Positions 27,968-30,101 of a stretch of DNA of 30,192 nucleotides are shown piece by piece. The DNA comes from a virus. The first letter of the stretch is position 1. Each line of letters starts with the position of its first letter. The translations under genes and the position numbers were made by a program. The notes under the pieces are model-generated. The model was not told where the DNA came from, did not search any database, and saw only the letters and a list, made by a program, of their open reading frames with translations. The DNA is taken from IMG/VR virus record IMGVR_UViG_3300015262_000026, positions 1 through 30,192 of that record; one strand, 5' to 3'.

Positions 27968-27995
27968 TTGCGCTGGTTGCGGGGCCCGCTACAGT
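27968..27995 (+). promoter_or_regulatory. Putative promoter of the Y RNA array
   Basis: TTGCGC (27968-27973) and TACAGT (27990-27995) are spaced by 16 nt, a moderate match to actinomycete vegetative promoters (TTGACR, TAGRRT). Six or seven bases downstream falls at about 28001-28002, exactly where the first Y RNA's terminal stem begins. It sits just after the strong terminator, a logical place for an independent unit. Confidence 0.55.
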
Positions 27996-28000
27996 GGGGG

Positions 28001-28138
28001 CGTCCAGGTGCGCAGGCAACGGATCCTTCTGGAACTGGGTGTTGCGGGTTCAAGTCCCGCCTGGCCAACAACGTTGGCCGGTAGCTCAATGGGTAGAGCA
28101 TCAGTCTGCGAGCCGTCGCCGACTTCGATCTCTGGACG
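28001..28138 (+). ncRNA. yrlA-like: Y RNA 1, YrlA type with permuted tRNA-like domain
   Basis: The terminal stem CGTCCAG (28001-28007) pairs with CTGGACG (28132-28138). Inside is a Ro60-type internal loop, GTGCGCA opposite GACTTCGATCT. A second stem follows, GGCAACGG (28015-28022) with CCGTCGCC (28113-28120), which has one A-C mismatch. The head is a circularly permuted tRNA: anticodon-like stem ACTGG (28034-28038) with TCAGT (28101-28105); 5-nt variable loop; T-arm GCGGG-TTCAAGT-CCCGC (28044-28060); 9-bp acceptor-like stem CTGGCCAAC/GTTGGCCGG closed by loop AAC (28061-28081); TA as positions 8-9; D-arm GCTC-AATGGGTA-GAGC (28084-28099). There is no free CCA end, as in known YrlA RNAs, where the Ro60 stem replaces the anticodon loop. 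The next gene but two is Ro60. Ends are inferred from pairing. Confidence 0.85.
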
Positions 28139-28158
28139 AACAACTTCAGACTTCTGCA

Positions 28159-28229
28159 CCTCCCGGTGCGTAGGCCGCGGCTACTTCTTTGAAACAGGTG
28201 ACGCCGCAGCCGTCTTTGATCTCGGGAGG
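28159..28229 (+). ncRNA. Y RNA 2, short form without tRNA-like domain
   Basis: The terminal stem CCTCCCG (28159-28165) pairs with CGGGAGG (28223-28229). It has the same internal loop as its neighbours, GTGCGTA opposite GTCTTTGATCT. The second stem is GGC-C-GCGGC (28173-28181) with GCCGC-A-GCC (28203-28211), a C-A mismatch at the place where the other two have A-C, so the mismatch is kept with bases swapped. The loop (28182-28202) starts TACTTCT and ends CAGGTGAC, like the corresponding part of RNA 3 (TACTTCT, then GGGTGAC), but the T-arm, acceptor-like stem and D-arm are missing. It looks like RNA 3 with the tRNA module deleted. About 71 nt, 20 nt after RNA 1. Confidence 0.75.
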
Positions 28230-28243
28230 CTCAAGCATCGGGA

Positions 28244-28378
28244 GCGCCCGGTGCGCAGGCAACGGGTACTTCTCCTTCAAGAGGGTGACGCGGGTTCGAA
28301 TCCCGCCGCCAGCGTGGCTGGTGTCGTCTAGCGGCCTAGGACACCTACGTCTCCGTCGCCGACCCTGATCTCGGGCGC
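28244..28378 (+). ncRNA. yrlA-like: Y RNA 3, YrlA type with a tRNA-Glu-like permuted domain
   Basis: The terminal stem GCGCCCG (28244-28250) pairs with CGGGCGC (28372-28378). The internal loop is GTGCGCA opposite GACCCTGATCT, and the second stem GGCAACGG (28258-28265) with CCGTCGCC (28353-28360) is identical to RNA 1. The tRNA-like head has variable loop GTGAC (28285-28289), T-arm GCGGG-TTCGAAT-CCCGC (28290-28306), 7-bp acceptor-like stem CGCCAGC/GCTGGTG with loop GTG (28307-28323), TC as positions 8-9, and D-arm GTCTAGCGGCCTAGGAC (28326-28342). That D-arm is close to bacterial tRNA-Glu, unlike RNA 1. The anticodon-like stem is only CCT/AGG, then irregular. The spacer from RNA 2 is 14 nt, so the three RNAs are probably cut from one precursor. 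Confidence 0.85.
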
Positions 28379-28394
28379 CCCATCGCTTGCGCTT

Positions 28395-28417
28395 CCCCTC
28401 CATGTGAGGGGCTTTTT
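28395..28417 (+). terminator. Terminator of the Y RNA array overlapping the Ro60 ribosome binding site
   Basis: CCCCTC (28395-28400) pairs with GAGGGG (28406-28411), loop CATGT, then C and TTTTT (28413-28417). GAGGGG is also the best Shine-Dalgarno for the Ro60 ATG at 28419 (7-nt spacing). When the hairpin forms, transcription should stop and any readthrough mRNA would have its ribosome binding site masked. This couples Y RNA and Ro60 expression. Confidence 0.75.
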
Positions 28418-28418
28418 C

Positions 28419-30101
28419 ATGTCGCGCTTCAACACCCGCACCACCCGCCCGTCCGTCAGCTCGCCGATCGCCACGACCGGCGAGACCACCCGGACCCACG
28501 AGGGCGGCACCGGCCACCTCCGCGACGCGAAGTCCGAACTCTTCCTGCTCGCCGTGTCGAACATGGTGGGCACCAGCACCTTTTACGAGGACGGCAAGTC
28601 CCGCGACGACCGGTACGAGCGCCTCGTCCGCAAGCTCGCCGTCGAGGACCCGGAGTGGACGGTTGGCCTGCTCGGCTGGCTGCGTGGCGAAGGCAACATG
28701 CGTACCGCGGCCCTGGTCGGCGCGGCCGAGTTCGTGAAGGCCCGACTCGAAGGCGACAAGGGCGCCGACCCGGCGGGCTGGAACCGCGAGACGACTGCAG
28801 AGGCAGCCGCCAACGGCGGATGGAACCGGCGCGTCATCGATGCCGTCCTCCAGCGCGCCGACGAACCGGGCGAGATGCTCGGCTACTGGACCAGCAATTA
28901 CGGCCGCAAGCTGCCCAAGCCGGTGAAGCGGGGCATCGCCGACGCCGTACAGCGCCTCTACAACGGCAAGAGCCTACTGAAGTACGACACCGCGTCGAAG
29001 GGCTACCGCTTCGGCGACGTCCTCAACCTCGTCCACGCCGCCCCGCATCCCGAGAAGCCATGGCAGGGCGACCTGTTCCAGTACGCCCTCGACCGCCGAC
29101 ACCACGCCGACACCGCGGTCCCGCCGGAGTCGAACCGCACGCTGGCCGCGCACCGCGAGCTGATGGCGCTGCCGGCGGCCGAGCGGCGCGCGGTGGTCAC
29201 GGCTCCCGATGGCGCCGAGCGGCTCGCGGCGGCCGACATCACGTGGGAAGCGTTGGCGGGCTGGCTGCAGGGGCCGATGGACAAGGCCGCGTGGGAGGCC
29301 GTCATCCCGTCGATGCCGTTCATGGCCCGGCTGCGGAACCTCCGGAACTTCGACGAGGCGGGCGTCTCCGACGAGGTCGCCGAGCAGGTCGTGTCGATGC
29401 TCGCCGATCCCGAGCAGGTGGCCCGCTCGCGGCAGTTGCCGATGCGGTTCTACTCCGCCTTCAACGCGGCCCCGTCGCTGCGGTGGGGCCACGCCCTGGA
29501 GAAGGCGCTCACCGCGTCGCTCGCGAACATCCCGCAGCTTGGCGGGCGGACGCTGATCCTGGTGGACACGTCCACCTCAATGGACGACGCGTTCTCGAAG
29601 GACGGCTCCCTGATGCGCTGGGACGCGGCGGCCCTGTTCGGGATCGCCCTCGGCCGGCGTTGTACGTCGGCTGACGTCGTGTCCTTCTCTAGCGCCCGCT
29701 ACTACGTGAACGACGCCCCGGGGGCGAAGACAAAGGCGTTCCCGCTCACCCAGGGCGGCTCGCTCCTCAGTGACGTGAAGAAGTGGAAGGACGGCGGCTG
29801 GTTCCTCGGCGGCGGCACGGACACGGCGGCCGCGCTGCGGCAGGAGTTCAGGGGGCACGACCGGGTGGTCATCGTCACCGACGAGCAGGCGGGGCACGAC
29901 TTCGTGGAGGTCGATCGGTCGGTTCCGCAGGCGACGCCGATGTACACCTGGAACCTCGCCGGGTATGAGGCCGGGCACGCGCCGTCGGGTCGCGGTCAGC
30001 GGCATACGTTCGGGGGTCTCACGGATGCCGCGTTCCGGATGATTCCGTTGCTGGAGGCGGGCCGGGACAGTGCGTGGCCGTGGGCGGGCCGCGCGGCCTG
30101 A
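28419..30101 (+). CDS. rsr: Ro60 (TROVE/vWA) RNA-binding protein
   Basis: 560 aa from ATG 28419; GTG 28404 is in frame but lies inside the terminator hairpin. The N-terminal TROVE domain (about 20-365) is a ring of helical repeats: NTRTTRPSVSSPI at the start, HLRDAKSELFLLAVSNMVG, VRKLAVEDPEWTVGLLGWLR, and near the end RLRNLRNFDEAGVSDEV. In known Ro60 proteins the ring cavity holds single-stranded RNA 3' ends and the outer surface holds Y RNAs. The C-terminal von Willebrand A domain has a complete metal site: DTSTS (Asp383, Ser385, Ser387), the Thr in GGGTDT, and the Asp in VIVTDEQ. Length matches cellular Ro60 (roughly 530-540 aa). It lies directly after three Y RNAs, the usual gene neighbourhood of bacterial Ro60. 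It may scavenge misfolded host or phage RNA, or direct an exonuclease to RNA. Confidence 0.95.
   Translation: MSRFNTRTTRPSVSSPIATTGETTRTHEGGTGHLRDAKSELFLLAVSNMVGTSTFYEDGKSRDDRYERLVRKLAVEDPEWTVGLLGWLRGEGNMRTAALVGAAEFVKARLEGDKGADPAGWNRETTAEAAANGGWNRRVIDAVLQRADEPGEMLGYWTSNYGRKLPKPVKRGIADAVQRLYNGKSLLKYDTASKGYRFGDVLNLVHAAPHPEKPWQGDLFQYALDRRHHADTAVPPESNRTLAAHRELMALPAAERRAVVTAPDGAERLAAADITWEALAGWLQGPMDKAAWEAVIPSMPFMARLRNLRNFDEAGVSDEVAEQVVSMLADPEQVARSRQLPMRFYSAFNAAPSLRWGHALEKALTASLANIPQLGGRTLILVDTSTSMDDAFSKDGSLMRWDAAALFGIALGRRCTSADVVSFSSARYYVNDAPGAKTKAFPLTQGGSLLSDVKKWKDGGWFLGGGTDTAAALRQEFRGHDRVVIVTDEQAGHDFVEVDRSVPQATPMYTWNLAGYEAGHAPSGRGQRHTFGGLTDAAFRMIPLLEAGRDSAWPWAGRAA

Follow-up and report, generated by a model that had tools for sequence, protein, structure and literature searches.

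A phage-borne Ro60 gene with three tandem predicted Y RNAs, and permuted tRNA-like modules in the Y RNAs of phages and Streptomyces

The Ro60 locus of the phage window

The window analyzed here is the whole of a 30,192-base IMG/VR virus record, which may itself be a fragment. Pfam and PHROG searches identified terminase, portal, tape measure, endolysin and holin genes. A strong terminator (-28.7 kcal/mol, z -5.1 against shuffles) lies 3' of the endolysin/holin cassette and the collagen-like genes, and the Ro60/Y RNA unit follows it (Table 1). The original prediction had placed a promoter-like element, three RNAs with the same Ro60-type stem, a terminator and a full-length Ro60 gene in one compact unit after the lysis operon. 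The position of the unit, the terminator within it (as a terminator-like hairpin) and the intact Ro60 gene were all recovered. The lysis cassette also encodes, between endolysin and holin, an Rv2179c-like 3'-5' exoribonuclease (25704-26270).

Table 1 Features of the Ro60/Y RNA unit, in window coordinates
Feature	Position	Strand	Evidence or remark
Intrinsic terminator hairpin, end of upstream lysis/tail operon	27927-27957	+	14-bp stem, then CCTTTTT
Promoter-like pair TTGCGC-16-TACAGT	27968-27995	+	Sequence; TANNNT spacing kept among relatives
Y RNA 1: Ro60 stem and permuted tRNA-like module, type A	28000-28139	+	R2 95.7 bits, E 9e-20; R1 E 6e-9; YrlA 43.7 bits, E 1.8e-8
Y RNA 1, type A helix ACUGG with UCAGU	28034-28038 with 28101-28105	+	5 bp
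Y RNA 1, tRNA-like module	28044-28099	+	T arm 28044-28060, closed acceptor hairpin 28061-28081, D arm 28084-28099
Y RNA 2: tRNA-less; Ro60 stem and UACUUC mini-hairpin only	28158-28230	+	R1 86.7 bits, E 1e-17; R2 50.6 bits
Y RNA 3: Ro60 stem and complete permuted tRNA-like module, type B	28243-28379	+	R2 115 bits, E 4e-24
Y RNA 3, anticodon-like arm UUCUC-CUUCAA-GAGGG	28270-28285	+	Sequence; covariation at class level
Y RNA 3, tRNA-like module	28290-28342	+	T arm 28290-28306, acceptor hairpin with GUG triloop 28307-28323, D arm 28326-28342
Second terminator-like hairpin, then CTTTTTC-ATG	28395-28411	+	-10 kcal/mol
Ro60 (TROVE) gene, 560 aa, vWFA MIDAS DTSTS	28419-30101	+	Intact ORF, from ATG at 28419 to stop at 30101

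The promoter-like element stood in part: a scan with the E. coli sigma-70 consensus found no match at its position, but the spacing of its downstream box is conserved among relatives. Across 150 loci, a TANNNT box lies at a constant distance from the first Y RNA, with 55 occurrences at 12 nt and 28 at 25 nt, and the TACAGT of the window lies 11 nt from its first Y RNA. It is this positional conservation, in place of the E. coli scan, that points to a promoter. At the other end of the array, the 3' strand of the second hairpin, GAGGGG, is likely to double as the Ro60 ribosome-binding site. A tRNA called by ARAGORN on the minus strand (28764-28860) falls inside the Ro60 gene and was taken as spurious. 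The unit resembles the rsr-yrlBA-rtcBA operon in combining Ro60 and Y RNAs; unlike that operon, no RtcB is encoded in the 30-kb, possibly incomplete, record.

The Ro60 protein matched Pfam TROVE (PF05731) with 55.4 bits against a cut-off of 23 (E 8e-15), and PHROG 850, "RNA-binding protein". Its AlphaFold2 model (pLDDT 85.5) has the predicted helical-repeat ring and the vWFA domain with a DxSxS MIDAS that characterize Ro60/Rsr proteins, and the best Foldseek neighbors were the Ro60 of Thermus phage phiLo (9L5Y), the Ro autoantigen-RNA complex (1YVP, TM-score 0.74-0.78) and Deinococcus Rsr (2NVO, 0.59-0.65). The MIDAS residues D383, S385 and S387 do not vary among 26 aligned proteins. Streptomyces chromosomal Ro60s are about 60-65% identical to the window protein, and annotated actinophage proteins only 38-47%. 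In a quick tree, with one row (L200) mis-framed, the phage Ro60s fell outside the main chromosomal clade and formed separate clades, the window protein grouping with prophage-type records (99% SH-aLRT). Clustering of the genes neighboring Ro60 revealed no constant partner, and yielded mostly GC-rich frame noise and lysis genes.

Three Y RNAs and their relatives

For comparison we fetched 39 related viral loci, 13 annotated phage regions, 80 chromosomal loci and 80 further viral loci, some contigs being shared. Two covariance models were built from relatives only, leaving the window out: R1 from 46 tRNA-less RNAs and R2 from 32 tRNA-like RNAs. Across the whole window, R1 scored 86.7, 59.8 and 47.7 bits at exactly the three RNAs (E values 1e-17, 1e-11 and 6e-9), and its next match, on the opposite strand, had an E value of 0.05. 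Matches to these window-free models, including those of R2 (Table 1), support the presence of Ro60 with tandem Y RNAs in a phage, the boundaries of the unit and the tRNA-less second RNA. The covariance-model search proposed with the original prediction thus found all three RNAs when models of relatives were used, but Rfam detected nothing in the window at its gathering threshold. With the threshold lowered, Rfam YrlA (RF02553) matched RNA1 and, with 22.6 bits, part of RNA3, neither reaching the gathering score of 69.

The stem halves GTGCG[C/T]A and G[A/T]CNNNGATCT occur in all three RNAs, as had been proposed. In aligned relatives the GGUGCG/GAUCUC Ro60 stem is near invariant and the flanking helices covary. 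Compensatory changes among relatives were likewise found: RNAalifold predicted 38 pairs for the tRNA-like set, 22 of them with two-sided changes, including pairs in the lower stem, the inner stem and the tRNA arms. The single-sequence folding energy of RNA3 is no better than that of shuffles (z -0.4), and its structure therefore rests on covariation. RNA3 ends about 40 nt from the Ro60 ATG, and the adjacency of Y RNAs and Ro60 is conserved among relatives. Judged by sequence, the three RNAs have the two hallmarks of bacterial Y RNAs, a neighboring Ro60 gene and a conserved lower stem predicted to bind Ro60.

A close match among described RNAs is YrlA (RF02553, Salmonella, PDB 6CU1), in which, as here, a T arm, a closed acceptor hairpin and a D arm stand in permuted order in an RNA adjoining Ro60, with one anticodon-stem-like helix closing the module. 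RNA1 conforms to this architecture, having the same closing helix with 5 bp. RNA3 departs from it: a separate anticodon-like hairpin, absent from the Rfam consensus, replaces the closing helix. The loop of this hairpin, CUUCAA, has 6 nt, one fewer than in tRNA, so the arm is imperfect in the window; the D arm of RNA3 is tRNA-Glu-like in sequence. RNA2 has no tRNA module and belongs to a class seen also in the 46 aligned tRNA-less relatives. All Y RNA units share a motif, GGNUACUUC, 3' of the inner stem (in the window at 28021-28029, where RNA1 has the form GGAUCCUUC, 28178-28186 and 28264-28272). Units from Streptomyces to Xanthomonas phages keep it almost unchanged, whether the RNA is tRNA-like or tRNA-less.

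Arrays of this kind are widespread. By a regular-expression count, which gives a lower bound, 30 of 79 chromosomal loci had three units and 38 had two; almost all the chromosomal loci were from Streptomycetaceae. Among 98 viral loci, 38 had two units, 19 had three and 11 had four to six. A model-based scan added Y RNAs at loci that the regular expression had missed, including loci of Gordonia, Arthrobacter, Xanthomonas and Mycobacterium phages. The association of Y RNAs with Ro60 is maintained in phages as well as in chromosomes; Ro60 is present in 39 of 61 sampled Streptomyces genomes and, as had been noted for some actinophages, is annotated in phages, in dozens of records. The commonest three-unit order in chromosomes is tRNA-like, tRNA-less, tRNA-like. 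The Streptomyces chromosomal locus shares with the window this order, the outer stems (GTCCA, CCTCCC, GCCC), the tRNA-less middle RNA and the UACUUC motif, but in chromosomes RNA1 is usually of the anticodon-arm type and RNA3 usually is not, the reverse of the window.

The novelty claimed for a three-RNA array with a tRNA-less member is therefore lost, such arrays being common in Streptomyces chromosomes and two to six units being usual in related phages. Nor is a phage-borne set new. Actinophages BRock, GiJojo and Alone3 (Ro-like proteins), Thermus phage phiLo, whose Ro60 structure is solved, and Listeria phage CKA15 (putative Y RNAs) carry Ro60 with nearby RNAs, although the Y RNAs are unannotated or called tRNA in these records. 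Y RNAs have been reported in mycobacteriophages (Chen 2014, as cited in PMC12282133), and three abundant RNAs near an Rsr homolog have been proposed in a Listeria phage (PMC12282133). Y RNAs beside Ro60 in bacteria and phages, and multi-unit arrays, are thus already known or usual. In the literature searched, a scope outside which the founding Y RNA papers lie, neither the Streptomyces array nor a Y RNA retaining its anticodon arm was described, and we regard the novelty of type B, treated below, as provisional.

Several loci depart from the usual layout. In some Streptomyces genomes there is a further Y RNA locus, more divergent than the first (G002 C3 6888023 and C4 981579; G001 C106 and C200); in G002 it adjoins a second Ro60 copy. 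Y RNAs lie downstream of Ro60 in Mycobacterium phage Kingsolomon (L053 2967-3094) and in a viral contig (L040 5329-6096). In Streptomyces phage JustBecause an RNA ligase gene (L047 2729-3481) stands directly between the Y RNAs and Ro60. Another viral contig (L025, ~2700-2850) has a Y RNA with D, anticodon-like and T arms in ordinary, unpermuted order inside the Ro60 stem.

Permuted tRNA-like modules

A tRNA runs in the order acceptor 5', D, anticodon, variable, T, acceptor 3'. The tRNA-like modules of these Y RNAs show a circular permutation of this order, and a short loop closes the acceptor. A permuted module with a loop-closed acceptor is already known from YrlA (PMC11472068), which has been described as a mimic of the D, T and acceptor arms (PMC8394870). 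In type A modules, the helix equivalent to positions 27-31/39-43 closes the module, and the Ro60 stem replaces the anticodon loop. Of 154 distinct modules, 55 had the full 5-bp helix where 14 were expected (maximum 23). The pairs of this helix vary widely, with 29 different helices among 40 units.

Type B modules retain the anticodon arm in full, with the Ro60 domain placed between it and the D arm. The UACUUC motif comes 3' of the Ro60 stem, and its UUC begins an anticodon-arm-like hairpin with a 5-bp stem, a 7-nt loop and a variable loop of 3-6 nt ahead of the T stem. A strict test, which combined this geometry with U33, a purine at 37 and A38, was passed by 61 of 154 distinct modules, against 0.16 expected (maximum 2 in 300 shuffles); a first, smaller set had given 24 of 64 against 0.08 expected. 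When the loop-sequence requirement was dropped, U33 was found in 24 and A38 in 27 of 28 distinct arms. Among 36 distinct type B arms the covariation score was 0.819, compared with 0.278 for shuffled arms (0 of 500 as high), and sliding the strands abolished the signal. Every pair forms across these 36 arms, a percentage that is high by construction because the arms were chosen for pairing; the variety of pair types is not by construction, but related arm sequences are not independent. Pairing of type B units in the type A manner was rejected, the 39-43 strand being fully pairable after the D arm in just 10 of 61 units. Calls by ARAGORN on un-permuted modules were discarded as evidence: 38 of 48 were called tRNA, but so were 59% of controls with a shuffled anticodon region.

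Loop features outside the selection criteria are also conserved in type B, with C32 in 60 and U36 in 53 of 61 units, and positions 34-35 vary; the loop is mostly CUNNUAA. In ordinary tRNAs, CUNNUAA with U36-A37 is a t6A context. Provisionally, one type of RNA mimics a rearranged tRNA more completely than has been described for bacterial Y RNAs, including an anticodon-arm-like hairpin. We tentatively propose, as a possibility rather than the likelier case, that bacterial Y RNAs occur in two permutation registers, that type B keeps the anticodon arm with a t6A-type CUNNUAA loop and has its Ro60 domain inserted between positions 26 and 27, and that Ro60 presents varied tRNA mimics, perhaps as bait or handle for enzymes that read anticodon loops.

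The D arm and loop can agree in apparent identity: in L007 RNA3 and L183, tRNA-Glu-like D arms accompany loops reading CUC. The match is not strict, because L011 combines a tRNA-Glu-like D arm with a GCU loop. Some chromosomal RNA3 units, about -195 to -215 from the Ro60 start, combine a D arm of Leu type with a long variable arm (L071, L072, L076, L078, L100, L102 and L133). It seems that modules of different tRNA identity have been taken up into one slot of the array. The anticodon-plus-T segment of R2 (positions 28-66) also matches ordinary tRNA genes, and some matches bridge two adjacent tRNAs (L043 1623-1701); it is possible that tRNA-like modules were born across tandem tRNAs.

Possible roles of the phage unit

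We favor, with a probability of roughly 0.6, the reading that a widespread actinobacterial Ro60 RNP is present here as a phage copy, with three Y RNAs that have a common Ro60 stem and different partner-docking heads. Sequence and covariation establish the RNAs and how they are structured, as well as the fold of Ro60 and an array order that is conserved, upon which the following scheme would build. A single transcription unit would yield the three Y RNAs, and some of the transcription would continue into the Ro60 gene; the second hairpin overlaps the likely ribosome-binding site, and Ro60 may therefore come from read-through. The same lower stem in each RNA would hold Ro60, leaving three heads: RNA1, permuted at the anticodon loop; RNA2, with no tRNA module; and RNA3, which keeps an anticodon-like arm. 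Most likely, the heads would connect Ro60 with enzymes of the host or the phage that act on tRNA or structured RNA, and the docked Ro60 might then sort, protect or deliver RNA during infection, to the benefit of the phage.

Bacterial precedents exist for a Y RNA that tethers Ro60 to PNPase and for a tRNA-like Y RNA inside the rsr-yrlBA-rtcBA operon (PMC7790460, PMC8394870). The window resembles the Rsr/Y RNA/PNPase machine of Deinococcus radiodurans in having a homolog of the Ro60 ring (2nvo) and Y RNA partners; unlike that machine, it has three RNAs in one unit. By analogy with Deinococcus, a PNPase-tether function may be inferred. Against the favored reading we counted the lack of RtcB in the window, the scores of the tRNA-like RNAs below the YrlA cut-off and the shuffled-like folding energy of RNA3.

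The unit could instead be a horizontally gained host RNA-quality-control module that has no role in infection and aids the lysogen under stress (UV, starvation), as in Deinococcus. The separation of the unit behind a terminator is consistent with this, as are the Streptomyces genomes that carry Ro60 and the close relatives that include records from Streptomyces isolate genomes (e.g., L054). We consider it unlikely, however, given that phage Ro60 clades are separate from the main chromosomal clade in the quick tree and that phage Ro60s are kept in large phages within tRNA clusters.

The most interesting rival, to which we assign only a small chance, is that the tRNA-like heads, above all type B, are bait for host anticodon nucleases or tRNA-directed defenses, shielding real tRNAs while Ro60 stabilizes or disposes of the cut baits. 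The covarying type B arm, which keeps U33, U36, A37 and A38 and varies at 34-35, would suit such a role. Phages deploy tRNAs against tRNA-cutting defenses (PMC11555353), YrlA has been suggested to inhibit an anticodon nuclease competitively (PMC7790460), and the RNA ligase gene of JustBecause fits the same idea. The role is weakened because the same RNAs are common in host chromosomes and the RNA3 loop in the window has 6 nt; moreover, RNA1 of the window lacks an anticodon arm and Salmonella YrlA is itself uncleaved (PMC7790460). That the tRNA-like heads represent permuted tRNA genes from which cleavage at the acceptor hairpin releases working tRNAs is very improbable even though type B has acceptor, T, D and anticodon arms, since the Ro60 stem would stay inside the molecule, degenerate anticodon loops are frequent (the one in the window has 6 nt) and the triloop encodes no CCA.

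Three different heads on one protein in a compact phage unit, with a type B anticodon arm open to base-by-base mutation, would permit direct tests of a role for Ro60 in tRNA damage, with defense nucleases or in bulk RNA decay. The analysis also corrects annotation, as Y RNAs overlap a number of tRNA genes deposited next to Ro60 in phage genomes: tRNA-Ser(gct) in Alone3 (Y RNA at L043 3268-3415), tRNA-Arg(cct) in GiJojo (L041 3263-3411), tRNA-Arg(tct) in VanLee (L046 3097-3236), tRNA-Pro(tgg) in Frankenweenie (L051 3261-3400) and tRNA-Thr in Xanthomonas phage 10KY502B (L052 2199-2334). The tRNA features deposited for these five phages are probably misannotations.
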